NCBI GenBank assembly: GCA_947179485.1 | Contig: OX359246.1 | Coordinates: 3,286,001 to 3,350,000, forward strand | DNA: 64,000 nucleotides | From: Allacma fusca | Lineage: Eukaryota > Arthropoda > Collembola > Symphypleona > Sminthuridae | Direction: 5' to 3' | Part shown: in pieces, positions 15,340 through 41,885 of the stretch | Numbering within the stretch: position 1 is the first letter of the stretch | Layout: each line of letters begins with the position of its first letter | The notes under the pieces: generated by a model | Seen by the model: the letters and a program-made list of their open reading frames with translations, nothing else | Told to the model about the DNA's origin: nothing | The model's database searches: none | Program-made: the position numbers and the translations under genes

Positions 15340-15500
15340 TTGTCAAAATGAAGTGCTGGAAACACTGCACACTGAACCCGATTTTGGAAATATTGCACAC
15401 TTGAACTGATTTTGGAAACATTGCACACTTGACCCGGTTTTGGAGGCATTGCATGTTTGGCCCGATTTTGGAATCATTGCACACTTGACCCGACACACTT
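15340..15500 (+). repeat. Second 28-bp family (ATTGCACACTTGACCC type)
   Basis: ATTGCACAC-like starts at 15392, 15420, 15448 and 15476 give a 28-bp period. Each unit has GACCCGATTTTGG in place of the CAAGTTCCTTG half of the preceding array. It shares CACACTTGACCC with that array but is out of register with it. Confidence 0.85.
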
Positions 15501-15599
15501 GACATTTCAAACTGGAATTTGGAATCTGACCTGAGTAAGGATTCACTGTAAACCTGACCTGCATTTGACTGAAATGAGTTTCCCAGTCCTGTACAGTTG

Positions 15600-16539: not shown

Positions 16540-17760
16540 GACCTCTGAGGTCAAGGTCACTTTATTTAAGGGTCAATGTCAACTGCCTTCTGGGGGACAG
16601 TAGTTCGTTTTGTTCCCTGAAGCGGATTGAATTGAACCTGGAATCAAGCCAAGTCGTGCTCAAGTATAAATTGGACATAAGGAAAGTAGTTACAGGTCAA
16701 TGTCAGGTCAAGCTCAGGGCATGCGAAAATAAAATATTAAGCAAAGTTTGAAACTCCTGCAATGATCCTTTTAATAGTGACCTTTGGGTCGTACTTAAAC
16801 AGAACAAATTTTAATTTTTTTCAAATCAAGGTCAGAGTCGGGTCAAGTGTTCTACAGGTCGCGGTTTTAGGAAAACTTGATATGTGTATGTAATCCAGCG
16901 ATGATGGAATAGATACTGACGCTGCATTATATACAACGTTCTTTAGAATAATATTTTCGGTCAAGCTAAAGGTCAAGTTTAGGTCAGAATAATTATAGGG
17001 CTGAAACAAATTTCAAGTGAAGCTTGGGTCAAGCTTGAGTAGAGGCTTAAAGGATATTTGGATCAATTTTAAGACGATTTTACGCAATAAATGTAGTTAG
17101 GGCACACCTAAGTTAAGTTTATAGTTTAAAGTTATCATAGGTCAAGGTCTAGGTCAAGTGACGATAATAGGTGTAGAGTTAAGTATAGGTCATGGCGGTC
17201 AAGTTCAAGTTATATGATTAAGGTTGTGGTGGAGGGAATGACCGATGTTGATCAGATTAAGGTCAACTTAATGTCTAGTTAAGGTCAAATTAAGGTCAAG
17301 TCAACTTCAGGTTAAATTAAGGTGTTCTTAAGGTCAACATGGTCATTTAAAGGTAATTTGGTTAACTTAAAGTCATTTCAAGAACAACTTATTGTCAAGT
17401 TAAGGTCAAATTAAGTTTAAGTCAACTTCAGGTCAACTTCAGGTCAAATTAATGTTAAGTCAACTTTAGGTCAACTTCAGGTCAAATTATGGTTAAGTCA
17501 ACTTCAGGTCGACTTCAGGTCAACGTAAGGTGTTCTTAAGGTCAACATGGTCATTTCAAGGTATTTTAAAGGGCAACTTAAGTTCATTTCAAGGTCAACT
17601 TGAGGTCATTTTATGGCTTAGTGAACTTAGACATGTTTTTGTAACAAGAGCAGTTCAGACTAAGTTTAGGTCCTCTGGAGTTCAAGTTCATGTCAAGTTT
17701 GGAATAATTTTAGGAAGTGTACAGTCAAAGTTGGGTCAAGTGTGAAGGTCAAGTTGTGAC
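16540..17760 (+). repeat. GGTCAA block, opposite orientation
   Basis: AGGTCAAGTT, AAGGTCAACTT and CAGGTCAAATTA recur densely, best between 17270 and 17580 (AACTTCAGGTCAA repeats). The word orientation is inverted relative to 14.7-16.0 kb. Confidence 0.7.
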
Positions 17761-18559
17761 CTCTAAAAATGTAATAATTTAATTTGGGACACACCTTGAG
17801 TAAGATTTGATTAAAGTACCAGTGAAGTTATAAATAATTTGAGGTAAAAACAAAGTGTTTTGAAGAACCCGATTAATCAAGTTTTAGAGATTGGAACACA
17901 TGTTCTGTAAAAGCCGCAATCATTTGCACGCTTTTCCTTTGCTCGTCAATGGCCTGGTAAAGAGCGGTTGCCACGGAGCCTCATTTAATAACATGGGCTG
18001 GAGCTGAAGGAGTCACCGAAGCCTGGAAACCGCACAAGTGCAAATCCGAACTGAGGCAAAAGAAAACAAACGGATCTCCAGCCTCCGCAGCATCACTCAA
18101 ACGGAGATATACACTCCGAACATTTACATATACGGAATAACAAAGTGACACTGACGGAGGGAAGGACTCGACCGCAGTCTCTAAAACCCACAACTCTAGC
18201 AGCAGTCTCAGTTTCCTACACAAAGGAATCCCATTTCTTATGCTCACTCTTCCTATATCTATTTATCACTTCTCTTCGAGGCCCCTTTCCCCTCTTCCCC
18301 AATTTATGCCTGTGAATCAAAGGTGGGATTTCTTCAACCCCCCAATCTTCTGTCATCAATCGATAAGTGCATTCAGCTTGTGTTTACAATTCAACAGAAA
18401 TTAGCTGAAATTAAATTTTCTAATTCAAAATGTAAAGCAACGCTGAGGTCAAAGCAGGTCAAAAGTTATTAATTTCATTTTACTCTAGATGAGTCCAAAT
18501 TGGTTTAAGTTTGCTAAGTTTAAGTTAAACAGGTGGGTGTTTAGTTGAAGTCAACAAAG

Positions 18560-19320
18560 TTTCAAGTGGGGTTGGAGTTTGCGTCAGTTTGAGGTCAAGT
18601 CAGGGTCATGTAAATACCATTTCGAGTTTAAATACGTGCCAAGTAAATGTCAAGTAGAGGTCAATGGTACTGTTATGTCAAGGTCAAGCAAATGTCAAGT
18701 TGGAGTTAAACAAGTGTCAAGTAAAACTAAAGTCGAGGTCAACAGGTACTGTCATGTTAAGGTCAAACGCCGGACTGAGATTGGCTAAGGGTCGAATAAA
18801 TCTCAAGTAGAGGTCAAAGGTACATTTTACTCGCAAGTTGATATCAAGTAATTGTCAAGTTCACTTGAAGCCAGTGTCAAGTGAAGGTCAACGGTAGTGT
18901 CACGTAAATGTCAATAATTCTCATTGTCAGGTTCAGGTAAAGGAAGTGTAAAGTTAGGGTCCAGTAAATCTTAAGTTCACGATTGCAATTTTGATCTCAT
19001 GGTCTAGTATTTGTGACCCCGTGGTCAAGAATTTGCATCCTTGTGGTCAAGCAAACGGTTAAGTAAATTTTAAGTGAAGCTCATGTAGGTCAAGTAAATG
19101 TCAAGTTAATGTCAAATAAATGTCAAGTGAAGGTCAAATAAATGTCAAGTGAAGGTCGAATAAATGTCAAGTGAAGGTCAAATAAATGTCAAATAAATGG
19201 CAAGTCTAAGTCAAGTAAATTTCAAGTGAATGACAAGTGTAGCTCAAGTAAATGTCAAATAATTGGCAAGTTTAGGTCAAGTGTAGGTCAAGTGAAGGTC
19301 AATTTCTAGTTAATATTAAA
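18560..19320 (+). repeat. GTCAAGTAAATGTCAAGTGA-type array
   Basis: Words AGGTCAAGTAAATGTCAAGT and AAGTGAAGGTCAAATAAATG alternate with a loose 10-11 and 20-22 bp rhythm, densest at 19080-19310. Confidence 0.75.
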
Positions 19321-20329
19321 TTGTTCTCCACCCTCAGCTAAACGAAAATGAAATGTGGATTAAATCAATGTAACTTTAATGATCTTAAGCTTAAGTACAC
19401 CCTTCTAACGTTCTAAGGTCAAACTTAGGTCAAGTTAAGGTCATAGATTTGAAACACTCGCATACATCCCAAACAGTTTAAATTCCACATTTCTACTTCC
19501 CCTACGAAGCAAATCCTTAGAATTTGCATATGACAACGCACGTGAGAAACTAAGTGTTCCTGAAGGATAATTTCCAACGAATTTCCCCATGCTTATACAT
19601 GCAATGTACATACGCATATATGTACATACTAGTAAATTCGGGACTATGGAGAGTAACAGATTTGACACCGCCCATCCTCATTCTTAGGAATTAGAATGTT
19701 TCATCTGCCCCTCATTAATTTCAATGATACAGTAGTTAAGTCGGAGTTTAATTTACTGGGATTCCTATTCTTACAAATGGAGCTTTTCACCTGGAGCCGC
19801 AGGCTCTCAATTATTCCCATGTACAGATTCCCGTCCACAGGACTCCATGCCATGTATGTACATATGCATCCATTCATATACGTCCCACCGTTGGGAAGAC
19901 AAGAAGTCATTTAATTAAAAGTTGATTTCTCCTATTCATGGGAGGTGTGCATACATGAGGCTATGGGCCTAGCACCTGCATGTACATATATACAAGTATG
20001 TACGTACCATTGTGAAGATACACAGTCCCCTCTCCCACGCCCAGCATCCATAGCAACAAGCTGATTGTGGAAAGTTTTCAAACTAATTAATTGCAATGGG
20101 ACTTAGTCGCCCCTCCACCTCCCTTTTTAACTCCAGCCTTTCATTTCCCCAGAAATACACGAGTCAAAAATTAAACATGAGAATTATACACACATGCGTC
20201 TTTTCCACCAGATACTTCCCTCACAATGCATCAATTCCCAACTACTACTCACTCTCTCAAACCCAAATTTTAACATATTTCTGTCAAATATGAGTTTCTA
20301 ATCATTTACAATTAATTCCCAAATTCTTT

Positions 20330-20850
20330 GGGAAAAAAATTTTTTACAACGTAGTTATACAAATTTTGGGGTTGAATTTTTATTTTTTCCGGCCAAACTC
20401 TGTTTGCAGATCAAAATCCCACTTTTTACTTTTACGCACAATTTTTGCTTTAGTAAGACCATTTTGTTTTAAGATTATAAAAAAATTTTGGGCGCAAACC
20501 CAAGTAAAATTTTGAAACCCCCAAAAAGGCAATACCCCGATGTGTAAAAGTAAAACCCAAATTTTTAGGTTAAATACCATGTTTTTTAGTTAAGCCGAAA
20601 TATTTGTGTTAAAAACCAAATTTTTGAATATAATCATCCAAAGTTTTTAGTTACCACTGGCATTTTTGAGTGTAAACACAGCTTTTCAGGAAAAACCCAA
20701 ATTTTGTAATTCAAACAGAATTTTTAAGGTAAACACCAAATTTTTGAGTTAAAATACAAATATTTGAGTTAAAATACAAATATTTGAGTTAAAATACAAA
20801 TATTTGAGTTAAAATAAAATTTTTTGAGGTAAATTTGAAATTGTAAGGTT
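20330..20850 (+). repeat. 20-bp array AAATATTTGAGTTAAAATAC with decayed flanks
   Basis: Four near-perfect 20-bp units at about 20738-20817. Before them, units like CCAAATTTTTGAGTTAAA and AAACCCAAATTTTTAGGT have decayed beyond register. Confidence 0.8.
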
Positions 20851-21884
20851 ACCCGAAATTTTAAAGCAAAATTAAAGTTCTACCTTAAAAATCGTAATGT
20901 TTCAGGTAAACTGCACATTTTAGCTGAACGCCCGAATTGTTTATAGTAAAACCAAAATACGGGTGTCAAAACATGATGAGTGTAAATTTAATTTAATATT
21001 ATTTATAAAAAAAGTTTACTTCCAACAATAAATTTGCCTTAAAGAGGATGTTATTTTACAAAAACCGAAATATACTTTTGCAGTTAGAGGAAAATATGAA
21101 ACTAATGAAAAATGATTTGCAAATTTTAAACTGTTTGTGCATGGACATGTTGTTAAAGTATGTCCTGGTAAATAAAGAATTCCTAAAAACCAGAATTTAA
21201 CCCAGATAGATGATTATGAGAAAAAACTGAAATTTCTAATCGTTGAAAAAATAAAGTTGAAAAAAAAGTCGACAACTAAAATTTGTTGGAAAGCGGGTTT
21301 TAAAAATCAATAGTGGGTAATATGTTTGCAATTTAAATAACAATGCTTGTAAAATATTAACTTTATCTTTCCTTCCGTAAATTGATAAAATCGAAAATAA
21401 CATTCGGGTGACTATCGAAACATATGTGAATCTCTCAAAGGGATTGAGGGCTGGGTCAAAATTGTCTCTTAAAACTATCGTATTTGAAGAAGCTCATAAG
21501 TATATTTGAACCCACCAAAGTAAATATTTGGGCAAATTGCTCCGTCAATAGCTCTTGGTCTGAGGATGTAGCCACTCAAAGAAGTCACTACAGGAATTTT
21601 TGATACAGCCCACCCCATTTGTGCAAGTTCACCCCAAGATACATGTTTTCCACTCAAAAAATAAATAAGCAAGTGAACCTTCAAATGTGACAATTTTGTC
21701 AAAAAATGAAGCATTTATTTGTTAAAATTTGAAGAACAATTTTAAAATACTTTCCTAAATTTTGGCAAAAAAATGGATTGTGTTAAACCAAAATTGTATA
21801 AACATTTGGGCAAACGTTTTGCTAAAATTTTTCAAAAAATGATAAAATTTGGTTGCAAAAATTTTACTCCAAATGGGGCAATGT

Positions 21885-21985
21885 TTAAGAAAATTTTTAA
21901 GAAAATGTTTCAGAAAATTTTTAAGAAAATGTTTCAGAAATTTTTTAAGAAAATTTTTAAGAAAATTTTTAAGAAAATGAGATAT
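21885..21985 (+). repeat. TTTTTAAGAAAA / TGTTTCAGAAAA array
   Basis: Twelve-base units AAAATTTTTAAG and AAAATGTTTCAG alternate about eight times. The open frame across it (KKIFKKMFQK) is low-complexity. Confidence 0.8.
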
Positions 21986-24900
21986 TTTGTTATTAAACGT
22001 GTATAAAAATGTGTTAAATTTTATTACTCAAATTTGATGAAAACTTGAGGACGTTTTGTGTAAAATTCGTAGGAAATGCTTTGAGAATTTATTCTTCAAT
22101 CCGTATTGACCCTTTTGCGTAGAAGAAAATATGTTTGAGAGAAAGAGTCGGCCGTTACAAAAATTTTCGACCGTATATTGATTCAGTGGAACAAATTTTT
22201 TTATTTGGGGAAACCATAACAAGTGGGTAACTCAAGTTGTAAGATGCCTCCTTGAATTCTAATAGGGTTGGTTGGGGTTACTCCGTCTAAGATTTTTTCT
22301 CAGCCCTGCGACATCCATTGCATCATCAAGTTCCTATATTTCCCCTCAACATTGCTAAATCCAGCTCGGGAAGGTTTGGGAGAGGAAAAAGTTTAAAGAA
22401 AGTGGTTTCACTCCTTTCACAAGTCTAGCACACTAATTCATATTAGTCCCAAATATGTATCTCCATCCATCAAATATATGCCCTATAGCGGAAATTTCCC
22501 CCACAAAAATTGTCCGCCCACATGATATGGACATAGAAAGGTCTCAAGCAAATATATATATACAAAGGGTAAATATAACTATATTTGAGTTCCACAGAAA
22601 ACAAGTGGTAAATATCGTCTTTTTCCTTCTTCAAGTGTTTATCTTCACCTTGCAAAACCACAAGAAATCAGCAAAATTGCGAGCAGCAGGTTTCAAATTT
22701 TTTTAGATGAAAAGACCACTAAGACGCAAAACCAATCAAGTTTTAAAAACTTAACGTACAAAATTCATTTTCCACAAAAACGCACTTAGTAAAAGCTCGT
22801 TTCCACAAAAATCATGGCGCAAAAACGTTAAAAGCCAAATGTAAAGGCAAATTGTAAAACAAAATTCATAAAATTGCAAAACCTTTTATTAAAATTTTAA
22901 ATGAAAAAAAAAATTCTGGAAATTCGGCAACACTAAAGTGCTGCATTTATCTTGCCAAATGTACAAATGATTTTAAATGTTGACACTTGAATACTAAACC
23001 TGGTCACAGGTTAAAATTTTGCTATTAAATTTGTATCAAAATTTCATTAAGTTTTATACTTAAATATTAACCGTAATTTTTGTAAATGTTTCGCACAGAA
23101 ATGCTTCATAATTTTTACCCTTAGATTATAACACAGCGTTAAAATGTTTTTGCATCCAAATTGGTCTTTAGAATTTTGCCCCATATTTTGCCCCATATTT
23201 TTCAATTCAATTTTCTATAATTTTCTTCAAATCTTTTTCCTTAAGTTCTTATATAAATTTTTATGCTGAAATACCCTGCCAAATTTTAACCCCTAAATTG
23301 GAACCAAATTTTTATCAAATTTTTAACCCTTAATCATTAATCATTTAAACTTAGGTAAAATTACACTAAATAATTTATAAATATTCCAGCTTTAAAAATG
23401 CACCTAAATATATTTTTGAAAATTCGTCATAAACATCCAAAAAATTCAAAATGTTTAAAATTCTCTGAAAGTCCAAAATTGTGCCTGCGTCAAGCTAAAT
23501 AAGAAACCCCCAAAAATGTACTTTTATTTTAGCGGATTTTTCTCCAGGGTATCCCCCTCCAGTTGTTTGTAAAACGAATAAAACGTAACTAAGCATGTGG
23601 TAACCCTTTGTGTGGGGGAGGTTCGTCAATATAAGGAAGATTTTCCCTGGAACACTAACCCGTGCCATGAGAATCTATCGAATTTGAGCTCAATCCCATG
23701 AAAACATCCACTCCATTGTAACTCATACAATTTTTTTTGTTGGGCATGAAACCCAGTTTTTCTCCGTTTTCCCTCTTTTTGTTGGAAAAGCGTGTCCTTT
23801 ATTTGACGAGTGTATACCCACAATTGTTATTTATATTTCCCTCTTATGCTTTTTCCCAACCGGATCCCACTTCCCAGCAAATAACTTTTGTATTGCTATA
23901 GACTCAATGGCAAGGTCGTTTCCCCCCATCCTTTACCACTCGGTCCAGGAAAGTACATGCAGTGCATCCAAAATATCCTAGATGTTTTACGCCTCTGTCC
24001 TAAACAGCCGTATCAACCACCCAAATTTTTTTCCACAATTTTTCCATCAAAATTATTTTCCTTAAAAATCATATCTGCAACTATTTATGAGATAAAATTT
24101 TTACACAGTTAAAATTTTTGATTCAAAATAAGGGTAAAATTTCGGTAAAAATTTAATACTGAAAACATTTTGAAATTTATTGAATGTTTTTGCACAATTT
24201 GATTAAAATCTGGGAAATGCATGCTGTAAACAAATTTTTAGAAATTTGAAGGATTTTTGCACGAAATTATTGGCGTTTTTCCAGAAAACGTTCTTGCGGG
24301 GTGGATAAAAAAAATTCCCGAAAGGGGTTTCGGGATATCAAAATTTTCCTGTATGTTTTAGTGCTATCAGTTTGTGATATGGGCATTTGGGGAAATGTGT
24401 ACTTAAGATTTCGGGGACTTGCGGTTTGCGGGGAAGTTGTTAGAACGTAAAGTTGTTGGGAATGGAAACCTTTATTCTTTGAATGGGGAAAAATATGGAA
24501 TTTGGAGTACGTTTCTGGAGTCCCAGCTTTCCCTTACATTTATGGACATTGTTAGTACACTTTTCACTCAGTTTCGAGTTATTTGAAATGGGGCGAATAA
24601 ATTCAGGGAGTTGGAATCGATTTGAGGACACCCACAGTGCTGCTCAACCATTGCCCATATGTAAAACCATGCGTGAAAAAAAGGGGTTCCTTGGGAAAAA
24701 TTTTTTTTACAAAAATTCTTTTATCTATATGCGCCTTAGAATTTTCCTCTTTTCATACTTTCCCCCCAAAAATTTTTTCCCGTATATTTTCCTCCAAGCC
24801 CCATTTGATTCTTTTCTAAGAATCCCATTCGTCAATTTATTTCTCATGCTGTTACACAAACCTGGTTTATTTAGTACAGCGGGAGTCAAAAAGGGGATAT

Positions 24901-27581
24901 TTCTCCGAATGAAGCCCCATTTATTAAGCAAATGCTCCAGGTTTCCAAACAACCCTTTTAGGTTCCATGGGAAAACATTTTTGTGCAACATGTTGACACA
25001 TATATTCATTAATTAGCTCCGCAAACCTGTCCACCTGTTTTTTCCGCCTCTTGTTTGCGCAATTTTCAGGCGAAATTGCCATATTCCGGAAAATTGGAAC
25101 AGACGCTTGCGATTTTCATGAATTATTTTTGCGGGCTGGGTTTATTCTTGCAATAGCATTTTCGCACACCCCGAAAAAATGCCTGTCAACTTAGGTTGGC
25201 AAATTCATAGGAACAAGTTGTCAAAAAATGTAGCACATATTTTTTAAAGCAATTTAGTGTAAGTTTTATAAATTATTAATCCACATTTTCATGTCCTTTA
25301 TTTTTAAAATTTCAGCCCAATTTCGAAATATTTTTCAGAAATTTGAGCATTCTAATTTAGAATGTTTAACGTTTTGATTATTTTATTTTAGCATGTTTAA
25401 AAAAATTGTGGCGGGACTTTGAAAATTTTTGCAACTAGTTTGAAAATCTGTATAAAAAATATTTTGAACACACTACACAATTTTTTCCATGTAGAGTTAG
25501 CTCATATTTAAAAAAAAAATTAGTCAAACATTCTCAAAGTATTTGATTCCATTTAATCTATTCCCCCAAAATGTACCAATGCGCTTAAATCCCACAAAAT
25601 CAAAACATGTCATAGAATTTTGTCAACCCTAAAAATTCTCACTAGAAAATTCCCCCCGAGAATGTTTTACAAGCTGCGCCATGATAAAACCAGAGAACCG
25701 GGGAAAATATCCATGTCCCAAGTTGCAACAACCATGTCAACATGTGCATATAAAATTGAAGTGGTCGATCATCATTAATTATCCAAAGGTACGGTCCTAA
25801 AGCCTAAATGCAAACTATGAAGAAACACTCCGATTTTCAACCCTGTCACTGAGCAATTCTCATGTAATCAAGTATCCTCAAAAGCCCCATTACAAGTCTA
25901 GAAAGCAAGTGTTTTAACCAAAATCCACCCAAATATTGATACGTAGCAAGTGTGGGCCGAAACCGCAATACAAGAGAATGTTCATACAGTAAATTTTCCC
26001 TAATCGGGATCTGTACCTAAAATCCCGCCCGAATTTTATCCCTAAACCGAAATTTTGTGGAACCCCAAATTTCCTCGGAAAAATTTGATTAAAAACACCC
26101 TAAATGTCAGATACGTTTTCCTGAAAAAAAATTTCCTGCAGTTTGTATTGACAGTTTGATGGGAAAATTGAATAAAAATGTGGTTTTTCATGTGGCGCCG
26201 GTTGGTAAAAGTTTGACTGTACGTATTGGCATGTGAGGAAACTTGAGAGAATTTATACCCGCAATAAATTTTCATGAGCTGGCTAATGTTGTTTGGGAAA
26301 CGATTGGGGCTGTTGGAGCAAATACGGTGTATATGTTTTCACGTCGTTATGTACAGGGGTTTGGAGGATGTAGAGCACATTTGCTTAGAGGCGCTTATAA
26401 AGAAATTTTACTTCGGAGAGCCCCAATTGCCATTTCCTTGTCCATAACTCCCAGCACACAAATTATGGATAGGGTTTTAATTGCAGGGCTTACGTATTTG
26501 AGAGAAAAGAATAGCTATGTATTAGTGTGTTTTTAGGAGGGGAAACTCGCTTGCTGGGAAATGCCAGGCAGGGAAAGAGAAGAAATCACAAATCAGAGGA
26601 GCTTTAACGATACACAATTCTGAACCGTCGGGGTAATTAATAAATCATGAGTGAGTGACATTAATTTATTAAGCCTGTCTCTATTTGGCTTATTGGTGTC
26701 TGTCTACATGCTGGAGAGCAGACGAAGGATGGGGAAATGCGTCAACACATTCCTTACATGGTTGATACGTCATCCCTGTTAGTGGCTCTTTATGGGGTGC
26801 CAGGAACGCTGTAGTAATAATGGGGGGAAAAATTTACCGTAGCAAAAATATTTCTTCGACACTTGTTTTTCAAATATAATTTCTTTCCGCAAATAAAAAA
26901 AACATTGATATTTCAGAACATCGACTAAAAAATTTTAAAATGTTTAGAGAACGAAAATTTTCGGGTAAAAATTGTAGTAAAAATTTGGGTACGTTTTTTA
27001 GCAAACATTTGTTTGGCAAGTTTGAGTAAATTTGTTAGCAAACATTTGGGGACGATTTTGAATAAAAGTTTCGGAAAACATTTGGGTATGTTTTAAATAA
27101 AACCTTGGTGTAATTTTTGGTGACAATTCAGAATATTTTCAGTAAAGGCTTGAACAAAACTTTTGGTAAAATACAATTGAGTGTAGGTTTTTATATTATT
27201 TATATTAATTTGGACAGCGTTTTGTATTTTTTAAACCTATTTTGTTAAAGAGTAGGGTAGAAGTCTGGACAAATCAATTAAGTAAAATTTCAGGAATCGA
27301 TTTAGTAAATTTTAAAAATACATTTTACTCAATTTTGTTTGAAATATTTTTCAAAATATGTTTAAGGTTTTCGTAAGGGGTTTATAATAATAATGAAAAT
27401 AATATAATAAATATTATAATAATTTTGAAAATGTTTTGTGTAGTATGTTTAAAAAATTAGGGTAATATTTCAATAATAGTTGGGACAAAAATTGATTTCA
27501 TAATTTTGGTTTCATAAATGTGATAAAATTTGTTTTTATAATTTTGATAAAATTCGTTTTAGCAATTTTGTAATATTTATT

Positions 27582-27935
27582 TTGACATTTCGGATACAAT
27601 TTGTCTTGACAAAATTTGTTTTATTAATTTTTGTAAAATTTGCTTTATTAATTTTGGTAAAATTTGTTTTATTAATTTTGGTAAAATTAGTTTTATTAAT
27701 TTTGGTAAAATTTGTTTTATTAATTTTGGTAAAATTAGTTTTATTAATTTTGGTAAAATTTGTTTTATTAATTTTTGTAAAATTTGCTTTATTAATTTCG
27801 GTAATATTTTTTTTATTAAATTTGGTAAAACTTGCTTGGTTAATTTTTGTATTTTTTTTTCAATTTTGGTAAATTTTGTTTTATCAATTTTGGTAAATTT
27901 TGTTTTAATAATTTTGGCAAAATCTTATATAAATT
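27582..27935 (+). repeat. 24-bp array with 48-bp higher order
   Basis: About nine units of TTTTATTAATTTTGGTAAAA plus four bases run in 24-bp register from 27619. The last bases alternate TTTG and TTAG through the middle of the array, giving a 48-bp repeat; decayed units follow to about 27935. Confidence 0.9.
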
Positions 27936-30900
27936 TTGGTAAAATTTTGGGAACTACACTTGGTAAACGTTTAGAAAGTAATTTTGACACGATTTTGGGT
28001 AATAATCTTTGTAAACGTAGGGTTTTCTGCAATGTTTTGAAAGAATCTTGGATGTTTTCGTAGATGTGTTTCGATAAAACTTAAGGTAGTGTTTTTGGAA
28101 ACATTCGTAAACGTTTGCTTAATTTCGGGTAAACATTTGGATAATATTTTTACTATATCTTTTACAGAATTTTGACTAACGTTTCGTAAAAAAATGCAGT
28201 AAAAATTTGAGTAGCATTCTTGGTTAATTTTATGTACGCTTTTGACAAATATTTGGTGCAAACGTTTATGTCATATTTTATTTACAATTGCAAAATCATT
28301 CACGTATAACTTGCCCCTAATATAGCCCAAATGTAAATTTTCGGTACTAGTTGGCAGCGAATCATTAAATTTCCATTCGGTATTTTAAATACCATTGAAA
28401 TACTTGAACCGGTAAAGTATCAATCAGTGGTTTGCTTACCTACAAAATCTTTGCCCAATTAGTGCCTGGTTGACAATCCTATAATTGCTAGTATGATCCA
28501 TTTTGAAATCAACTTACCCTTTCCCCAAATGAACCTAACAACAGTTACCTAATAGAAATTATTTACCTTCATTTAATGTCAAATGAAAATAGGAAAAGGA
28601 ACGCATATTAACCCAATGATCCGGAATGTGTAATTATAAAACTGGATTGAACCCGATAGATTTCCTATTACAAAATTACAAGTTTCAAGAAAATCGGTTT
28701 TGCCCTTATATTTGCATATTATCCTTACACAAGTGAAGTAAGTATCAAATACGGGCTCCGTGAAACGTACTCGGATAAAATACAGTCTAAACTCCATTAC
28801 CCAGAAAATACCTCTAAAATCAACAAACTACCCAAAGTCTGGGCCCATTTACCCAAATGCCTTCCAGCAGGACCTACAAGGGATTCGTGTCCTCAGGAAA
28901 TTTGCAAGTGGAAATTTGCGACTTTCAATTAATTCCACCTGATTTTCTTCCGGGGAAACATATTGTGCGGAAAAACCAGAAACACTAGAAATTATCTCTG
29001 CACGAGGAATGTAATGGGGAAAACCAGCGCACATACCTCTTTATCCCCTAATCCGTATGCAAGAACTGAAAAAATTTCCGATGTAGAAAATATTTCGAAA
29101 ATTTTGCTCAATGTTGACAAAACCATTTCCACCTATATTTTAAAAAATCTCATAACTCCTGTAACTTACTGTTAAATTTTCAGAAAAAATAAGTAATTAC
29201 AAAATAAATTTGCATCATCATCAAATTTTTTCCCCAGATTTTGGGATTTTCTCAATTTTCATAAAATGTTTTGTGATACGCCAAAAATTTAAAAAGTTAT
29301 GGAAAAAATTCAAATTTTAGGAATGGCCCCAAAGTTTTGAGAAAATCGTATATATAAAAAATTGTGTAATAAAAATGTGCTGGCAAATTATACATTAAAA
29401 AATAATTTTTTTCTTGATAAAATTTGAAGACATTGTTTTACCGAAATTTAACTACCTGCCATTGAAAAATTTTGCAGTGGGTTGGAAATGTTTTTCAAAA
29501 TTCTGGAATTTTTTGAATGTGCTGGGAATTTCAAAATGTTTTCAAAATTTGGGGGAAATTGTTGAATCAAAATTGAGGGAATTTTTCACTTTTAGGGGCT
29601 AAATTGAAAACAAAAGGTTTTCGGTTCCAAATATGCACGCCTCACTTGTAAATAGGATTTTGCATGTTTGAGTGCGGGCGTTAAGACAGATAGTACCTGG
29701 CCTGGGAGCATGTTGGGGAGGAAATAGGGGAATAGGAATTTACCTGCTCTTCCTCGCAATTAAATTAACTACCCAAAAGAGGAGAGAACCCAATTTCCTT
29801 CGTCTTTCAATTTCCGCTAATTGCTTTCAGGCCGTTTATGAACTTTATGGCGGTTAAGGAGGAACGGGGCTCCTGAGAATTCCTAATCTCCTTGTTTACC
29901 ATCAAAAGGGCTCACCCGGAAATTTCAACCAAAATCCTCCCACAACCTTCCATGGCATGTGTTAGCACCAGGGTAAGAAAAAACATGTAAAATAACAATG
30001 CGCCAACATACCAGGGAAAATTAAACGTCACCCTTAAACATACTCCCGATCCGATTTTTTCGGAAAATTCTTACATGTTTTTGTATTTGAGATCATTAGG
30101 AAAGTTGGGCTTATCAACACAACAGCCTCAGGGTCCACATAAGCCTGAACGTTTTCATTCATCAAAAAATTCTTTGCAGGATAAGGCGTCAAATTGGGTA
30201 AAAACTGGAAACCAGTTTTTTAAAGCCAAAATTACGTTTTCAGGGGAAATTGTACCAAAATCTGTATTTTATTGAATTTGAATTTTTGCCCCTATTTTAT
30301 TTGAAAATTTGCTAAATAGCTTTAAATTTAACGAAGTAAATTTTTGGAATTTAGTCAAAAAAGTGGTACGGAAAATTTTGAATGGTTTTTAAAACCCTTA
30401 TTTTTATGGTGCTGAAATCAGGCTTGAAAATACTCTCACAAGAGAAGATAATGTTTCATGCGTGCGTTACAGCGTGTTGGAAGTAATAAAACTGAGGCAG
30501 TAATTTCCAGTGGGTCCATTCCGAGCTGGGTTGTTGTGGGTCTGGAACATAAATTCAAATTTGCCTCCTCCAGGCAGATTCAATTTACTCAATGGAAATA
30601 ATTATCTTGGGGAAAGCACCAATTTGCAATTCATAAGCAACTCTTCTCGAGACTAAATGACATTCCTATTTCATTCCTTACTCCTTAATTGTCTCAAGTC
30701 CTCACACAATTTCTGTCTCTTCCAAACTCCTAATAGGGAAATTTTCACAAGATGGCTTTTAAGCCAGACCTGAGTTCAAAATAATTGATGTATGTAGCAT
30801 GTAACAAATTTTGTTGTTACGATTTGAGTTGTACTGCTTCAAAAATAAGAATGGTTTTCCCGTTTATGTCTTAAAATTTTGGGGCCAAGTTTAATGTAAA

Positions 30901-31009
30901 AGTCGACTCTTCGCAAAAATACTATTCAGTCTTGTATGTCACGTTTTCAGGGTGAAAATTTCGGGAAAACTTGTTAAAGCGCTAAATAGGGGAAATATTT
31001 TGGGGGTGT

Positions 31010-31570
31010 AAAATTTATTCGTAAATATTTCACAATTTTACATTTTTAGGGCAAATATTTTACGCTCGATAATTATCGGAGCAAACATTTTACAGTAGTA
31101 AAATTATTACAGGCGTAAATATTTGATAAGTATACAATGTTTGAGCAAAATAATTTACAGATGTTAATTTTCTTAGTAAATATTTTACAGTGGTGTAAAT
31201 AAACAGTCGTAAAATTTTACAGGTGTCAAATTTTGGGTCATATATTATATACAAGTAAAATTTCTATGAAAAAAATTTACAGGTGGAAAATTTCGATGGA
31301 AATATTTTACGGTGTAAATTTTACTATGGAAATATTTCACGAATGTAAAATATTGACCTAAATTTATGTAATATATGTCCAAAATTAAAATTGTGCTAAA
31401 AATATTTTACGGCCGTACAATTTTTAGGTAAATATTTTAAAGGTGTAAAATTGTGTGTTAAAATTTTACAGATTTCAAATTTTGGGGGAAATATTTTAGA
31501 GTTGCAAAATTCAGTTTTTTGCAGTAAAAAATTTTTTATAATTTTACGGGAATTTTTGCTAGCGTACAAT
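31010..31570 (+). repeat. Degenerate GTAAATATTTTACAGGTGTAAAATTTT-type array
   Basis: TAAATATTTTACAG and GGTGTAAAATTTT alternate with variable spacing; the segments are partly self-complementary (AAATATTTTAC against GTAAAATATTT). Confidence 0.65.
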
Positions 31571-33169
31571 TTTCGGTGGTAAATACTTTCTAACCGTTTC
31601 TAAGAAGTTGAACCCCCATGATGTTTTTCCCTGCGGATGTTCCCATTGAAAATAAAGTGAAGGAAGGAATCGGCTGGGAAATTAAAAGGGAGGAGCAATT
31701 AAATACTATAAAACTTGACGTTCCACTTGACTGTTTTCTTTTAAGAGAATTTCCACCCCAAGATTTCCAGCGTGCATTTCCAGGAGAGACAGCGACAAGG
31801 TAAGGGGAAAGAGGTCCTTAAGATAACCGGTTACCGAGGACCAGGAGCAGGGGAAATTCTAGACAAAGAAAACTTGTGAGGAGATAACTTGTGTGTATGT
31901 GGAAGCAACTGCTCCCTCAACTTGTTTTCCATTAAAAAGTTAGATGCTCAAAGTCTGGAAGAATTCCGTATTTCACCCAACCACTCTCTGAACCCCTAAA
32001 TACGGGCTAGCCCATATAGTTGCATACGCATCTCCACTTCCCTCTGAATCAGGTCTACGTACACATTTACTTAAGTCCAAAGGAGCGGTTTAGACGGAGA
32101 TTACAATTGATTTTGGAACGTGATACGTCCTCCAAATACACACGCCAAAAACCTTCCCACAATAAGCAACAGTCTATTTTTTACCATTTTACAATCAGCC
32201 CGCAATCTCCTTCCATAAACGTCCCAAGACCAAATCTGGAAAATTTGGGAACTCTCATTCCTAAATTTTAAAACATTTCCCTCTGTCCAGAGCATTTTGA
32301 GTGACCAAATTCCTTGAAAATATGTATAAAAATTTGCCCCAATTATTATAAAACCCTAAATTTTTGCGCTCACGCTGGTGAAAATTTGTGTAAGATTTTT
32401 ACGACAAAGGGGGCAATGTTGCTCCCAATTGCAAAAACGGGTTCCTAAATTTACTTCAAAAATGCGTTTTTTAGACAAAATGCTTTGTCAACAAGTTTTT
32501 CTTCCTTATGTTGTTTAAAACCATGTAATTATGTGTTCTGCAAAATTATAAGGAAAATATTTTCACAAAAACACGATTTGCGTAAAAAATGGGTTTAAAA
32601 TTTCGAGACTTTGGTGGCAGCATTTGGGTCAGAATCAATAAAATATTATTTTAGATAATTTAATTACCATATTGTTTTTGGAGAATGAGAGGTTTTCCAA
32701 GTTTGGAAACATTTTGAAAGTTGGGATGATGTTGGGTCGGTTGGACTTGAAGAGGAGGGAAATGGTTTCTAAATTACATCCCGATTTGGACAAAGGCTGG
32801 TTTGGTGGAAGTTTTGCGGTGAGATAAGGCGGAATAGGATAGGACTATGGTGGGTATGAAAACCATTGAGTTCAAGCGTAATGTTTCCGTAATAAGCTTA
32901 ACTTTAGATTTGGGAGTGTAACTGTGAACTTGAAAAGGATTCCATAAACTGCGGGTTTCACAAGTTCCCTAATTATAATTGCACCTCAGAGTCCATGTCT
33001 ATATTGTCTAAATGTTACCAAAATCTGATGTTCCAAGGGCTGGGCAAAATTTTCAAATTTTCAGCAAGAATTTATTTTTATTTAGAAATTTTCGATTTCA
33101 GCTTTGTTCCTTAAGCACGAAGCTTTTCGGAAATCATCATTTCGCTTAAAACGTGCTAAAACAGTCGTA

Positions 33170-33440
33170 TTGCAGTAAAACTGTCAAAATGTAAAACGGT
33201 CAAAACAAAAAACGTTCAAAATGTTAAACAGTCCAATTGTAAATCGATCAAAATGTAAAACGGTCAAAATGTAAAACGGTCAAAATGTAAAACGGTCAAA
33301 ACGTAAAAAAGTCAAAATGTAAAACGGTCAAAATGTAAAACAGTCAAATTGTAAAGCAGTCCAAAATGAAAACCATCAAAACACATTAACGCGATAAAAA
33401 CAGCAAAGCAGCCAAAATGTTGTAAAATGGTCAAAAATCG
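33170..33440 (+). repeat. 16-bp array GTCAAAATGTAAAACG
   Basis: Units in exact register start at 33247, 33263, 33279, 33295, 33311, 33327 and 33343, with decayed units on both sides. Confidence 0.92.
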
Positions 33441-35339
33441 GTAAAGTCATAAACATTTTGAAAACTTCTCCAAAATAACATTTTAAAATGTTACCAAATC
33501 AATTTCTACAAAAATACAAAATTGTTAAAATCTAAAAAGTCCCTTTCAAAACATCCTTTCACTTTTTATCAATTTTGTAAATTTGTCACAAAACATTCCA
33601 TTTTCAGTTTAAAAATGTGCACTTCATTTTCTAAATGTTTCTTATATTTTTAACACAAAAATTTTTAAAAAAAGTTTCAAAATTTATAAAAATTTTATAC
33701 ATATTTTTATCATATATATTTTTATCACAAAATCATTTTTGGGGGTGTTAAAGCAAATTTACTATGATTTTGAGAGTTTGCCCAACCCTTGGAATGATGT
33801 TGGGGGGAAATGTGGAAATGTGGGAGAGGACACTTGGGGAAATAGCATAAGGTTAAAATATATGAAGAAAGTTCCGCGTGAGTTGGCCCACATTACAATA
33901 CAATTAATGGACGTGGTACTTCCCCAGAGGCCATCTTGACTTTCTCCGTAAGTCCTCACACCAGAGCTATAAGTGGGCTCAAGATTTCCAGAGAAATCCC
34001 ACATCTATATTAAGAGTCAAGTGTCTTCTATATTCATTGTCTCCGACAGTCTCTTATCCTCCCAGCCCCAAATTAGCTCTGAACGGAAAAACGGGCATTA
34101 ATAACCCAAGGACTTTACGGGCACTTCTCCCAAATACGTCCACATACGCAAATATCAGAGGGACAGATAAAAGGGAAAATGTATGTTTTCTCCTTTTGCG
34201 GTGGACGGGGGTCCCCAGGTGCCCCTTTTGTTTTATTCTGCCCGCATGTAGAAGGTTACGCCAAAGATAGAACCTATTGCTTTCAAAACTCCCTCCATTT
34301 ATTATCCTTAAGAACAAATCTCTTCCGAAGCGTTCAAAACCCCACAATCCCAACCCCCAATTTCTAACTCAACCACAAATACATACTTTTTTTCAAATTT
34401 CATCAAGTTTACCCCAAATTCCAAATTTCCCGTTGAAAATATTTGAGTAAGAATTTTATGAAATTTTGGATAAAAATTTTTAGAGAAATTTTACAAAAAC
34501 CTACCCTTAAATTTTGGCGCAAATTCCCAATAACAGGGTAAAAATTGTATTAAAAATTTTCAGGCACAAAATTACGGAAGCAGTTTTTGGGGAAATATTG
34601 AGGCGCAAACAATTAAGGGGCAGAATAAAATACGCCAATAAAAAAGTTTTTTGAATATGCACCCTAATATCTTATGCATATGGTAACTCTATAAAAGGGT
34701 AATGTAAAGCCTGGAAAAGTTTCTCCTGAGGGATTTTAGGGGAAAGTCTGGAATTAATAGGGAGTGTATACCTGTTGGGGAAATATGCAGAAAATGCTTA
34801 AGACAGGAATGTGCGGATTATTTGTGGCACTTGAGAGAGGCACTTTCCGCAAGCACTTAGCTCTCCCTTTTTTCAGGCTCTGTAACTTTGTTTCTATTTT
34901 AATTGTCCGCAACAGCCATGTCGCAGCATTTTAGGGAACGTAACCCGAATGTGCATCTGTACAAGGGGTTGCTTTGGATTTACCTCCCTTTAAGCCCATT
35001 ATGTAGAGAAAATCCTGACAGCATGTCTGCGCCTTTTTATCCCTACGGATTCTTATGGATTTCTTCAAAGTACGAACCATTGGTTCGAAATTTCTTCAAA
35101 ATATGGGTAAAATATGTTCAAAATAGGGATGAAGTATCTTGAAAATCGCAATAAACTTTCCTCAAAAGTGTTATTAAAATTCCTCAAAATTGATATTAAA
35201 TTTTCTCGCAATACCGGCCAAAATTAGAGAATGTTACAAAGTTTCAAAAGACTAAGGCAAAAAATGTGGGAAAAATGTCCTAAAAGTACAAGCAAAATTT
35301 CTAAATAACTTTAGAAAAAATTATTCAAGGAACCAGCAA

Positions 35340-35460
35340 AATTGGCTAAAATTTACACAAAATAAGGGCAAAATTCTATCAACATTCGGGTAAAATTTGT
35401 TAAAATTTACAAAATATAAGGGCAAAATGTTATCAGCATTCGGGTAAAATTTGTTCATAA
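35340..35460 (+). repeat. 54-bp duplication (CATTCGGGTAAAATTTGTT)
   Basis: The CATTCGGGTAAAATTTGTT landmark at 35383 recurs at 35437, with AAGGGCAAAAT before each copy. Confidence 0.75.
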
Positions 35461-37149
35461 TGCTGGGGAAAAATCCGCAAAATGTGCGTAGCATCTCGAT
35501 AATATGCAGATATTTTCCCCTAAAAACTTCATGAAAATATGCTTAAAATTTTAACAAAACGAAAGCAAAAATTTCATATAAGATCGTGCAAACATTTGCT
35601 AAAATTTTCTTAAAATTTTAGAAATACCCCTAAAAATGGAGAAAATTTTGCCCCATACCCAGGGAAGTTTAGTTCACTATGGGAACAGAATGTTTTTTCA
35701 AACGTGTCGATTTTGCATTGCAACCGGAGACAATTTTGTAACACCCCGTATGTTCTTGCATGTAATCAAATGGGCCTTCCCCATAAAGCTCACTCCCGGC
35801 GTGACTCTTGTTATGTAATAATAGCTAACGAGCCAGAAATTTTAGCCCCTTTAGGTAAGGTAAGTGTATAAGGACGGAGTGCATTATGGGCCGTATGCAC
35901 GTGAGTTGTAATATTAGGGCAAGCAGGGAGCGTGCGGGCTATAAAGTGACTTTATATGTCACATAAATTACACCGAGTGCTAAGGATAAGTCAGAGGAGT
36001 AAAATAAATCTGAGCCAAATCCCTCAAATGTAGCTCCTTCCGAGTTGTCTCTATTTCTTCCCTCTTCAGCCATAAGCATGTATTTTATGGGATAAAGCCC
36101 TTAAACTCCTCTTCAAGGCGTCAAAATTCCCAATGTCGTTTACATACACGAGAAAACTGTGATTTAAGATTTCCAGAAAACACTTCCTTTTAAATTGGTC
36201 AAAAATTTTGAACAAAAATTTTAAACCCACTTTCAGCAATTCGAAATTGTATTTATTTTCTATGCAGTAGCCTGGGAAATTATTACACGTAATATTGGGG
36301 CAAAATTTGATTCCCCAAATTTTAAATCTCAGCGCTAACAAAATGTTGAAATTCTACACTTTTAAATTTGTTTTTTAAAAACTTTCGTCACAACACCAAA
36401 TGTACATTTGACGTTTGTCCAAAAATCGGTTTTAGCCCATAAATTTTAGATTCTCGTGCGTCATCCTGTCCACTTTAAAAATTTTATGGCTGGAGAGGTT
36501 TTAAGAGACCAGTTGAAAACCCTGGAGTGAAGTAGCACTGTAGACTCCGGTCCAGTATAAAAATATTTATGAGCATTGAATATTCAAGTATTTTTGAGCC
36601 CGTGCATACATATGCATGCAAATATATGTTTTCACAATATTTCGTGTGCACAAAAGCGGGCAGCAAAGCTTGGATTTCTTAGTATCCTTGGGGATTTTAA
36701 GAGCCATCAAAATGACCCTGAATCTTCTCTTGTTTGCTATAATATGGTTTGTATGGACGTTCTTTGAGCTATGCAAAAATTTCTGTTCAGGGCTTAGGAA
36801 CAGCTCAAAGCGATGGTCACGATTGCTGTAAAAATTTTAGGGATCTGGTTAAGAGGTTCGGTAAGGCAGTAACTTAAACAACCTACATTCAAATTTTTAT
36901 ACATAAATTGCTAGCATTTTTAATAGTAAAATCTCCAAACATTTTGATAATAAAATGTACACACTTTATACAGTAAACATGCAAAAGTCTCATACACCAG
37001 AGGTGCTAAAACTTTCCAAAAATATCTTATAATTTGTGGCATAAAGTTTGGACACATTTCATTTTCCAATTTTCCCTACAAAACATGCAAACGTTTGCTT
37101 CAAAATAAGCAGTTTTCGTTCAAAAAATATATACTAATTTTGGGCAAAT

Positions 37150-37905
37150 ATTAATTGCCACAAAATGTGCACACATGTTGAACACAAAACGTGAACCAAT
37201 TTTGGCAACAAAAGGTGAACAAGTTTTGGCAACAAATTGTGCACGAATTTTGGCCACAAAATGTGAACTAATTTTGGCCACAAATGTGCACAAATTTTGT
37301 CCACAAATGTGCACAAATTTTGTCCACAAAATGTGCACAAATTTTGATCGCAAACTGTGCACAAATTTTGATCACAAACTGTGCACAAATTTTGATCACA
37401 AACTGTGCACAAATTTTGCGGAAAACGTGGTAACAACATTTGGCCAAAAAATGCGAACAAATTGTGATCATAACTGTGATCAAATTTTGATCACAACATG
37501 TGCATAAATTTTGATCACAAAATGTGCATAAATTTTGATCACAAAATGGGCATAAATTTTGATCGCAAAATGTGCGTAAATTTTGATCACAAAATGTGCA
37601 TAAATTTTGATCACAAAATGGGCGTAAATTTTGATCCCAAAATGTGCATAAATTTTGATCACAAAATGTGCATAAATTTTGATCACAAAATGTGCATAAA
37701 TTTTGATCACAAAATGTGCATAAATTTTGATCATAAATGTGCATAAATTTGATAACAAAATGTGCATAAATTTTGATCACAAAATGTGCATAAATTTTGA
37801 TCCCAAAATGAACATAAATTTTTATCACAAAATATGCATAAATTTTTATCCCAAAATGAACATAAATTTTTATCACAAAATATGCATAAATTTTTATCAA
37901 AACAT
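37150..37905 (+). repeat. Long 24-bp array, two sub-families
   Basis: About 31 units. To about 37440 the units read CAAATTTTGGCCACAAAATG or CAAATTTTGATCACAAACTG plus four bases. From about 37490 they read CATAAATTTTGATCACAAAA plus TGTG, in exact 24-bp register. The last units change to TTTTTATC. Long frames on both strands (up to 210 codons) come from the period being a multiple of three. Confidence 0.95.
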
Positions 37906-40526
37906 AAAATTTTGCCTATAAATGGTCAAGAATAGTACACACAAAATTTACATATATTTCTGTTGCAAAATAATTACGCAAAAACTTTAGAATATACTTT
38001 AGAAAATGAGTTAACCATTTTCCCTCAAAATGCGCAAAACGTTTGCACAAAAAATGAGCTCAAAATGTACGCACAAAATCTATGTAAATCTAATCTGCAA
38101 AATGTACCCAAGCATTACCCCCTTATTATAAACTCTTAAGGTACTATGCTCGAAAACTTGTTACTGAAAATAGCAACGCGAATCAATCATTTTAAGTTTG
38201 ATGCAAAACCACCAGAAACCCTTAAATGTGACTCAAAGATATACCCAACACAATTAAAATTATTTTACCCCACGAAACGTTTACGACCGATAACAACGCA
38301 AAAGCACGTTTACAACATACATAAATTTATACTCAAGAACCCGATTACCCTGTCTCCTAATTATGCCACCTGGACTCTCCCAAAATACCCGAACTGGACC
38401 CCAGCCCTAATGCAGTACTGAAGAGCCAGTCCTCCTAAGTCTAATATTCCTGGGAAAGTTTAGGGGAAATGATTAATGAATTTTGCATTTAGTTTGCATT
38501 TCCTTCCTTTTGTCCCTATACACCATTTTGTATGCACACTTGCACTCACCCACTTGACAGAGCTATTTTACTTTGGGGAACTCTTCAATGACTTATTTGG
38601 ATTTAAAATGAATTTACTTTCTCTCCGGACTTTTACACTTTCCTTCCGGCCTCATCAATTCCCAGAACAAAAGCGTCCTAATATCAGGGCCTCCTTCAAA
38701 ATTCATAAGTCCATTGTCTCTACTAATGAGTCTGGAAAGTCGTTTCAAGTCAATATTTAAAACAACCATGTTTTCAAAAAATCCTAACAAAAAATACTTC
38801 ATTTCCTGGAAATTTTCCTTCAATTTCGTTATTTTCATAAAATTCTGCAAATGTTTTCAAAATTTTATTTCAAACCATTAAAAATATATGCAATTTATGT
38901 CAAACATTCTTAAAATACGGGTGAACTTTTTTAAAAAAATTTAATAGCATTGAAAAAAAATTTGCCCGCAAAAATACGAAAATGTTTCACGAAATTTGGG
39001 GCAAAAATTTCCGAAGAAAAAGTTTAGGGATTTTTCTTAATTGAGAAAACATGGTATTTTGCAACAATGTCTGGATGTCAAAAAGATTAAACTTGTATTT
39101 TTTTTATTTGAGAGGAGATTCTCACGTTTCACGGGAAAATGCGCCAAGAATTTTAAGCACATTTCCCAAGGAGCCAGATGACTGGATTTAAGCCCATATA
39201 CTTGCATATGTCCGTTCATATAATTATAAGGCCAGTGCATAAGAAATACTCAAATGTTTTCCCCCGAATAAACTTTCTATAAAACGACTCAACGCCAAAA
39301 TCAAAACAAAGTCAAGACAGAGAGGAATTTTTCTGAGGAAAACCCTCCGTTGTGTGTCTAACTTTGAGAAAACAATTTCGGAGGAAGCTCCTTTCAAATG
39401 GAAAGTTTTTTTCTTATAAAAACTCCCAAGGACTTTTCAAAGCTTCCCTCTTTTATATCAAAGTAATAAAACATTTTTCCAAAGAAGAAATACAACACCA
39501 GTCTTTGTACCCTTTCAAATTTTAATTTCCGGGTTTTTAAAACCCGGACAAAAAAATTGAAAATTCTCTAAGTGGATTGAATCCTTCAAATAAAGCTCTG
39601 GACAGGTTCTTAGTCTCTAATTAATTTTAACAATTGGACGAAATTACAAGAAACACTCCTGTTGCCCCCTAACCCTCAGAAAACGTCATAAGAATCAAAT
39701 TTTCTCGGAAAATCTGAACTTGCCCCAAAATCAGATTCCAGTAGTTTTTACAATCCTAAATTAGAAACAAATTTCGAAAAAAATATTTTCGAAAAGTGGT
39801 CTCAATTTTCAGAAAATTTGCTGAAATTACAAAAATCCGTTTGCAAAGCCTATGTAACAGTAAATATTCCCCAAAATTTAGTGGTTTTGGGTCAGGGATG
39901 ATATTTTTTTAAAAAAGTTTTTTTAAATTTTGTTTTTAATTTTTCAGATTTTTTGTATTCCACGGAACTATTTCAATCTCATTCTTTATGAAAATAAGTT
40001 GTGAGATGTTCCAGGATTTTAGAATTGTAGGATGAAAGTAAATAAAACGTCTCCATGCGGGCTGCGTTATTGCTCACTCTTCCGCCCGCATAAGAGAAAG
40101 TGCTATCATTAGCATGGAATTACTTCGGAGCGGAAGAAAATTTGCGAAAGAAAGTGCCCGATCTTTGGAAATTTCTCCTTCGTTATCTTTCCCTAACGGT
40201 GCCTACGCCTCACGGACTCCCCATTAGAAATGAAGGTCAGTAATTAGAATCCTTCCGGATTTCACAAAGGATGCTTTTTCAAAATGACACTAAGGAATGA
40301 AACTAGTGTTTATTAACACACTGTAATACATATGTGCAAACTTGGAGGTTACTTAATACCTGCAAACGGCTATGAGCGTTTTCAAAGAAATTTTGGCAAA
40401 ATGCGTTAAAATTATAAAATTACTAATTTTTGAACAAATTAAGAATAATTAAGCCAAGTTAATTGTGATTTGAATTTTAGCGCCTTGTTTAAAAATCAAG
40501 CGTAAAACCTGAAAATGTAAAATTAC

Positions 40527-40559
40527 CTTCATAGCCGAATCCGGTTTTGTAAGGATTGT
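40527..40559 (-). CDS. 33-nt microexon encoding the extracellular juxtamembrane linker
   Basis: Seen on the minus strand: acceptor TTTCATTTGTAG, then 33 bases, then donor G|GTAATT. With the T from the membrane exon it reads YNPYKTGFGYE and leaves G for the next exon, where G+AA gives Glu. Both borders are phase 1. The peptide is aromatic-rich, has no cysteine, and would sit just outside the membrane before the first follistatin module. It is required: the T that ends the membrane exon joined directly to the AA that opens the 12532 exon would give TAA. The match of splice sites, phase and open frame in so short a segment is unlikely by chance, but no cDNA is available to prove it. Confidence 0.72.
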
Positions 40560-40633
40560 CTACAAATGAAAGGAAACCCGATATAGAAAGCATTAGTTTT
40601 AAGATTTGGGTTAAGAAATATTAGAGCGCTTAC
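40560..40633 (-). other. 74-bp intron between membrane exon and microexon
   Basis: Begins GTAAGC and ends TTTCATTTGTAG on the minus strand. At 74 bp it is tiny beside the other introns of this gene (3-28 kb). Retention would end the protein seven residues after the helix, at TAA 40613-40611. The borders rest on two good consensus sites and matching phase. Confidence 0.72.
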
Positions 40634-41885
40634 ATTTAAAATAGATGAGGGCTCCGGAGAAAAGAAAAATTATTAAGAGGGTGGAGACGAGTAAAATTAG
40701 TAGCGGAAGACGGCAATGGATCCAGAGGGATTTTAAATAGTCGCTGTTGCTAATTGCCCCACCATCCCGCCCAGTAAACCCACTTGTACCCCCGTTGACC
40801 CGCTGACCCACCGGGTCATCATTTTCCCGGTCAAAATTTTCCCGGTCACCGTGACAGCAAAAAAATGCTTCTATTAATGCACAGTTGTCCTGCATGTCGC
40901 TATTGCTGTCCTGGTCACTTAACTGGGCGGGGATCAAATTTGGGGGCGGGCTGGTCAAAACCCCGTGACCGTTCGTATGCGCTTGGTAAAACGAACCCTT
41001 TTGACCGTTTTTTGGCCCGGACCCGTTCCCGGTAAAATTTGCTGGCCCATTTCCGTTAGCCGTAAAATTGCATGTGGCTGATCCTGCACTTGTGAAGTTC
41101 TGGCCTGACCCGTTAACAGAAAAATGAATTGGGCCTGACCCATTGGCCATGTAGTCGTTTGACCCATTCTGCGTGGTAAATTTTCCGTTCATTTTTTCTT
41201 GAAGTTCCCGAACTAAGACCGGGCAATTCCCGACGATTTCATCGTAGCCCAAGGGGTTGTGTGTAATGTTTAGACCCCCATTTTGGTAATAAGTGATATG
41301 GTCGTATTTGAGCATCGGGTCACTGTTGTTCCCATGGGGCTCTGTAATATTGTAGGGTACAAAGGGGCGGCTTATAATAGGATAGCCCCAGTCCTGGTCG
41401 TTCCCTTGGTAAAATTCTCTCTGCGGAGGAGACCGTTGGGGACCGATTTGACCCACTGGGTCAAACCCTTGTTGGGGTATTTGGTGCCCGTTTTGGGTCA
41501 ACGCGGGGTCCAAATTATGATTCGGCCTTTCATGCCTGTTTCTGGACATTGAGCCGTAACTCAGCTGAGGGTCTAATTGTTGGGGGTTTTGGGTCATCGG
41601 GCCAAATGAATCTTGAGGGTCTATTTGATGACCGTTTTGGGTCAATCTGGCAAATGGCTGCTGAGGATCCATTTGGTGTCCAGTTGGCGACATTGGGTCA
41701 AATTCGAGATGATGATCGATATGGTCTCCGTTCTGGGCACTTTGACCAACATTTCTTGACGAGTGGATTGAGCGGGGGTTGTTTGACCCATTTTGGGTCA
41801 ATGACCCCTGGGAATGCAATGGGGCAATGTAAGATTCGTGGATGTAGCCCACGTCTCCAGAGTAATGCTCCCGGTATTTTTCCAT
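40634..41885 (-). CDS. Agrin-like protein, N-terminal coding part: long Asn/Gln-rich domain plus signal-anchor helix
   Basis: Seen: an open frame from ATG at 41885-41883 to a donor T|GTAAGC at 40634/40633, 417 codons plus one base (phase 1). An in-frame TGA at 41915-41913 shuts the frame upstream, and the ATG has G at -3 and +4. Roughly residues 20-170 hold degenerate repeats around TQNG, GHQIDPQ and DPM; residues 225-300 hold repeats of NGSGP and NFT. An acidic Ser/Asp stretch follows, then one hydrophobic helix at about 393-416 with Lys, His and Arg just before it. There is no N-terminal signal peptide, so the helix should act as a type II signal anchor. Known: TM-agrin is type II with follistatin modules outside. 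Inferred: this is the N-terminus of that protein, joined through the microexon. Odd: the pre-membrane domain is very long and rich in N-glycosylation sequons. Without splicing, the frame adds seven codons (CKRSNIS) and stops at 40613-40611. A separate single-pass protein remains possible. Confidence 0.72.

Follow-up and report, generated by a model that had tools for sequence, protein, structure and literature searches.

A 33-nt exon that probably links the membrane helix to the follistatin domains of a springtail agrin

A 33-nt stretch on the minus strand of the springtail DNA that we analyzed (a window of 64,000 nt, C8:3286001-3350000, where C8 denotes contig coordinates and unprefixed positions count from the first letter of the window) is probably a real agrin exon, included constitutively, that encodes the linker of a type II transmembrane agrin. 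A sequence-only reading had presented it as a microexon whose splicing decides between a full-length protein and termination at the membrane. The anatomical half of that interpretation held up, in that an in-frame exon can join the membrane helix to the agrin follistatin array and that its loss stops the protein of this gene (gene A); the proposed switch did not. The features on which the argument rests are as follows, with a slash marking a splice boundary.

40634..41885, minus strand: first coding exon (coding part), an open frame that ends T/gtaagc
40560..40633, minus strand: intron 1, 74 nt, gt..ag
40527..40559, minus strand: 33-nt microexon, phase 1-1, YNPYKTGFGY + G/AA, placed by its splice signals and its gene B counterpart
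12533..40526, minus strand: intron 2, 27,994 nt
12323..12532, minus strand: follistatin domain 1 exon, 210 nt, beginning AA, with the tandem acceptor CAG/AAG/AG
8994..9234, minus strand: follistatin domain 2 exon, its 5' end placed approximately
5266..5481, minus strand: follistatin domain 3 exon, 216 nt
1..188, minus strand: follistatin domain 4 exon, extending past the window start
C8:3462832-3462867, in the sister gene B: 36-nt candidate exon after a 621-nt intron, at the matching place and in the matching phase

The helix exon of gene A ends in phase 1 at 40634 (TTT AAA T/gtaagc), the microexon donor is AAG/gtaatt, and the acceptor that follows is ttttcag/AAGAGCC at 12532. Reading the bases of the minus strand, we confirmed the claim that inclusion of the microexon gives T+AC = Tyr and G+AA = Glu and leaves the frame open from the helix into follistatin 1 (...ALIYFK-YNPYKTGFGYE-EEPCEQTT...). 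The two stops that had been described are also there: skipping joins the final T of the helix exon to the AA that opens follistatin 1, giving TAA right after the helix, and a retained 74-nt intron adds the seven residues CKRSNIS and then a stop. The microexon donor of gene A (AAGgtaatt) is off consensus at +5 and weaker than that of gene B (ACGgtaaga), so some skipping would be possible.

Several other signals lie close to these junctions. A second in-frame GT is found 18 nt past the microexon donor (40526-40509); its use would extend the exon to 51 nt, still open and with EGNFTFS as its last residues. The tandem acceptor of gene A follistatin 1 (12532-12530) could add or drop one Glu, with a stop on skipping under either choice (TAA or TAG); a similar CAGAAGCAG is found at the follistatin 5 exon of this gene. 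Upstream in the intron an in-frame ATG reads into the small exon (40593-40527, MLSISGFLSFVDNPYKT...), with a counterpart in gene B (C8:3462807-3462867, MGVFLQISDVPYKT..). These ATGs are probably due to chance; otherwise they would be an alternative start. UGC occurs once per gene in the 60 nt that precede the small exon, a count that is uninformative.

The first coding exon of gene A holds 417 codons from its first ATG, helix included, followed by the single base T. It encodes an N-terminal region that is hydrophilic, and a single hydrophobic helix (LILLVSTLLIIFLFSGALI); the Kyte-Doolittle mean is 1.6 or less in all 19-residue windows outside this helix and 2.82 within it, compared with 3.08 for the helix of gene B, which is likewise single. 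The homologous helix exon of gene B (C8:3461292-3462210, 306 codons including the helix) ends at C8:3462210. The two N-terminal regions resemble each other little beyond the helix (YLKSxWIHCRLPLLIL) and one short motif, LQEK, and Pfam returned no family match for either of them. The predicted type II topology is favoured by the presence of only one helix, by the hydrophilic character of the N-terminal region and by the many cysteines of the C-terminal part. Net charge over the 15 residues on the N and C sides of the helix is +1 and 0 in gene A and +3 and +2 in gene B, a difference that weakly favours an N-terminus inside.

By its domain content, gene A is agrin. Its exons go on outside the window (follistatin, laminin-EGF, laminin-G) to a stop at about C8:3242913, and a Pfam search of five joined pieces of the gene returned Kazal, EGF_laminin, Laminin_G, EGF and EB domains. 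Tandem follistatin/Kazal domains are present (Kazal_2, E 3.9e-33, with the first three follistatin exons joined), as is a laminin-EGF pair (EGF_laminin, E 1.5e-21, 2 stretches), and Laminin_G_1 matched two of the pieces at E 1.7e-23 and 9.7e-26. The assembly that we searched comprises 392,743,791 bases in 91 contigs; of its 42 Laminin_G_1 matches, five fall in gene A and four in gene B. The best PDB match of the laminin-G part is agrin (8s9p, E 3.8e-79). According to the excerpted text of PMC3927612, agrin is set apart from perlecan and pikachurin by NtA, SEA and tandem follistatin domains. A search of the whole genome for NtA gave no match at E <= 10, which is a weak negative, 14 controls being silent as well; SEA gave four genome matches at E <= 1 and none at C8:3.24-3.55 Mb, in an exon-wise search that may miss this domain.

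A second agrin gene, gene B (C8:3461292-3545010), lies on the opposite strand, head-to-head with gene A (C8:3242913-3327885), with the membrane-exon donors 135.6 kb and the first ATGs 133 kb apart. The two are colinear from the helix exon through follistatin and laminin-EGF to the last laminin-G exon and have 29 colinear blocks in common at E < 1e-3, among which a block at C8:3297781 is of low complexity and probably spurious. Of the 1896 residues aligned in the 27 blocks with E < 1e-10, 1235 are identical. Because fourfold-degenerate sites in the same blocks agree at only 196 of 494 positions, the duplication is old, with silent sites near saturation.

Between the helix exon of gene B and its follistatin 1 exon, which starts at C8:3483620, we spotted the 36-nt candidate exon by eye and scored it afterwards. 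Its peptide, YVPYKTHGSSID, has YxPYKT in common with the YNPYKTGFGYE of gene A. With the window exon as a fixed query, this counterpart came out on top of the 237 open phase-1 cassette candidates in the intron (BLOSUM62 local score 28; runner-up 23), and a score of 28 was reached by none of 3945 control candidates from five stretches, the highest being 27. In an all-against-all comparison with stricter splice signals the microexon pair was third of 510 (score 27), and the opposite-strand control reached 31. When 1-kb windows were paired at random, 30 of the 382 pairings contained some pair that scored at least 28. Over the first 1000 nt past the helix exons (14 and 8 candidates) the microexon pair was the best, tied with the 51-nt version of the gene A microexon, which scores equal to the 33-nt version against gene B; extending the range to 2000 nt brings in an unrelated pair with a higher score (34). 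The similarity of the 11- and 12-residue linker peptides is modest. We regard the small exon as real in both genes because this likeness comes with equal position and equal phase.

The introns that flank the microexon are unlike between the two genes (20 of 60 and 23 of 60 bases identical, ungapped), which would be expected anyway of copies so diverged. To look for another linking exon, or for a first exon with a signal peptide, in the stretch from the helix to follistatin 1, we also compared the sense frames of gene A with gene B by tblastn and found no shared block at E < 1e-4 from C8:3326623 to 3298539, in a search that is weak for very short exons and did not recover the 33-nt exon itself. 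A run on both strands returned a few intron matches at E of about 0.001 to 0.01, mostly outside the matching intron of gene B, and we judged these to be chance. The same judgement was made of the top first-exon pair (score 38; highest control 33), which is non-hydrophobic and lies at differing places in the introns.

It is highly improbable, on these comparisons, that a different exon links the helix to follistatin 1 or that the 33 nt are the first exon of another transcript. The latter could draw on the in-frame ATG upstream of the small exon, which is followed by a stop-free frame in both genes (MLSISGFLSFVDNPYKT... in A), but the leaders so produced would be very short, and polypyrimidine tracts encode F, L and S anyway. 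Against a different linking exon stands the lack of any other shared sense-strand block at E < 1e-4, in a search that has little power for short exons.

The stop on skipping is where the two genes part. The sequence-only reading had built its switch partly on this stop, which is absent from gene B, the only homologue examined: follistatin 1 of gene B opens with AT, skipping gives T+AT = Tyr, and the protein remains open. Stopping on skipping is therefore not a conserved property, and in gene B the small exon, if used there, would be retained for the residues that it encodes and not for a stop. The seam residue is acidic in both genes, Glu (GAA) in A and Asp (GAT) in B. At a T seam the Glu codons yield a stop on skipping and the Asp codons do not; since two acidic codons make a stop and two are harmless, such a stop is expected by chance in about half of cases, and the T+AA stop of gene A is no more than chance would give. 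Of eight other exons that we inspected, six (follistatin 1-4, follistatin 8 and laminin-EGF 2 in our numbering; the other two are follistatin 5 and 7) could be assigned a plausible donor that follows G in A as well as in B. After such a donor, skipping of the next exon cannot create a seam stop. If intron 1 is retained, translation runs into a stop in either gene, 7 residues on in A and 47 residues on in B, whose intron 1 has 621 nt.

A message with a stop upstream of many exon junctions is a likely target of nonsense-mediated decay (NMD). Because the stop here precedes many exon junctions, NMD of a skipped or retained message is a more probable outcome than a short protein that persists. A regulated switch, in which tissue-dependent skipping or retention would leave a short membrane protein with a cytosolic N-terminal region and no ectodomain, thus seems unlikely. 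Its appeal lies in the TAA on skipping and the stop seven residues into the retained intron, in the small exon with its sub-optimal donor and 28-kb downstream intron, and in the neuron-specific seven-residue N-terminal insert that is reported for chick agrin in the excerpted text of PMC4210653. However, the copy that stays open on skipping shows that the arrangement is not conserved, the messages would probably be decayed, and the flanking introns differ between the copies. No signs of regulation were found in the little that was examined, namely the flanking introns of A against those of B. The idea of a switch would matter only if RNA shows skipping.

Two further proposals confine the effect to gene A. 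It is quite unlikely that this gene alone diverts skipped or retained messages to NMD and so tunes the amount of agrin A, even though it has two non-productive outcomes at one site and gene B is without skip-to-stop; a retained 621-nt intron of gene B leads to a stop as well. We also hold it to be very unlikely that, after the duplication, copy A alone gained a seam that ends the protein at the helix while copy B stayed tolerant of skipping, which would make one of the two genes switchable. If true, a switch in one copy would yield a protein anchored by its tail, with about 400 residues in the cytosol and no ectodomain.

The explanation that we prefer is the constitutive linker. The exon would normally be spliced in, and YNPYKTGFGYE would serve as a juxtamembrane linker, supplying the stalk residues between the single membrane helix and follistatin domain 1, with the N-terminus predicted inside and the follistatin/laminin-EGF/laminin-G ectodomain outside. 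The TAA on skipping would be a by-product of the final T of the helix exon, the AA of the follistatin exon and the Glu codon where they meet. Degradation, and not translation into a working short protein, would be the usual fate of mis-spliced messages, and any skip product that survived would be tail-anchored.

Should the exon be no more than a linker, interest shifts to the gene itself, as an arthropod would have two head-to-head agrins. Perhaps more notable is that both appear to be membrane-anchored at the N-terminal end and that the part predicted to lie in the cytoplasm is long in each (417 and 306 codons, counting the helix). Retention of both the anchor and the YxPYKT linker by two diverged copies would point to membrane anchoring as a main form in this lineage. 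Minisatellite arrays with units of 24-28 nt occupy introns and flanks elsewhere in the window (37159-37899, 27611-27947, 14976-15299 and 52065-52363), and some of them are open in several frames. Rfam and tRNA scans of the whole window gave no match.

Vertebrate type II transmembrane agrin, a subject of Neumann et al. in 2001, reportedly arises from an alternative first exon. As in the springtail genes, its helix stands directly before the follistatin array and its N-terminus is predicted inside; unlike it, the springtail genes encode the linker in a 33- or 36-nt exon, and no NtA alternative was detected in them, itself a weak negative. In excerpts of PMC2874008, PMC1939731 and PMC4210653, two forms of vertebrate agrin are described, one secreted and bearing NtA, the other type II transmembrane, each with its own first exon. 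The "short intracellular region" of the vertebrate transmembrane form in the excerpt of PMC2874008 compares with 417 (A) and 306 (B) codons here. Judged by title or the start of the abstract, our literature search found nothing on agrin in springtails. The term "transmembrane agrin" was absent among the matches listed for the exon structure of that form, and no arthropod transmembrane agrin was among the matches listed for invertebrate agrin N-termini (including PMC3927612).

At an N-terminal splice site, the chick NtA form carries an insert of seven residues that seems to be neuron-specific (Denzer et al. 1995, as relayed in the excerpt of PMC4210653), so small exons near the N-terminal end of agrin can be alternative. 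Like the springtail exon, the insert is a very small in-frame piece near that end and is set by splicing. It belongs, however, to the NtA-bearing secreted form, where it is present or absent, whereas the springtail exon follows the helix, adds 11 residues and stops the protein when lost. Neural microexons, which are SRRM4-dependent and 3-27 nt long in the excerpted PMC7935315, resemble the springtail exon in being short and in-frame, in a gene of synaptic interest. The size limits given in excerpts vary (3-27 nt in PMC7935315, <=30 nt in PMC7821500, <=51 nt in PMC12064062), and 33 and 36 nt exceed the first two and lie within the third.

Among invertebrates, the one isoform found of C. elegans agrin has a signal sequence and is without NtA, as excerpted from PMC1939731. 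The legend of the NtA alignment in the excerpt of PMC2874008 nevertheless lists C. elegans. It lists no arthropod, and this absence agrees with our own negative, itself weak, search for NtA. For Apis agrin, legends in the same excerpt (Banyai et al. 2010, on bee and beetle agrins) list follistatin domains, a pair of laminin-EGF domains and three laminin-G domains. As far as that excerpt goes, the agrin of Apis is like those of the springtail in its follistatin, laminin-EGF and laminin-G domains, and the springtail differs in having two head-to-head genes.
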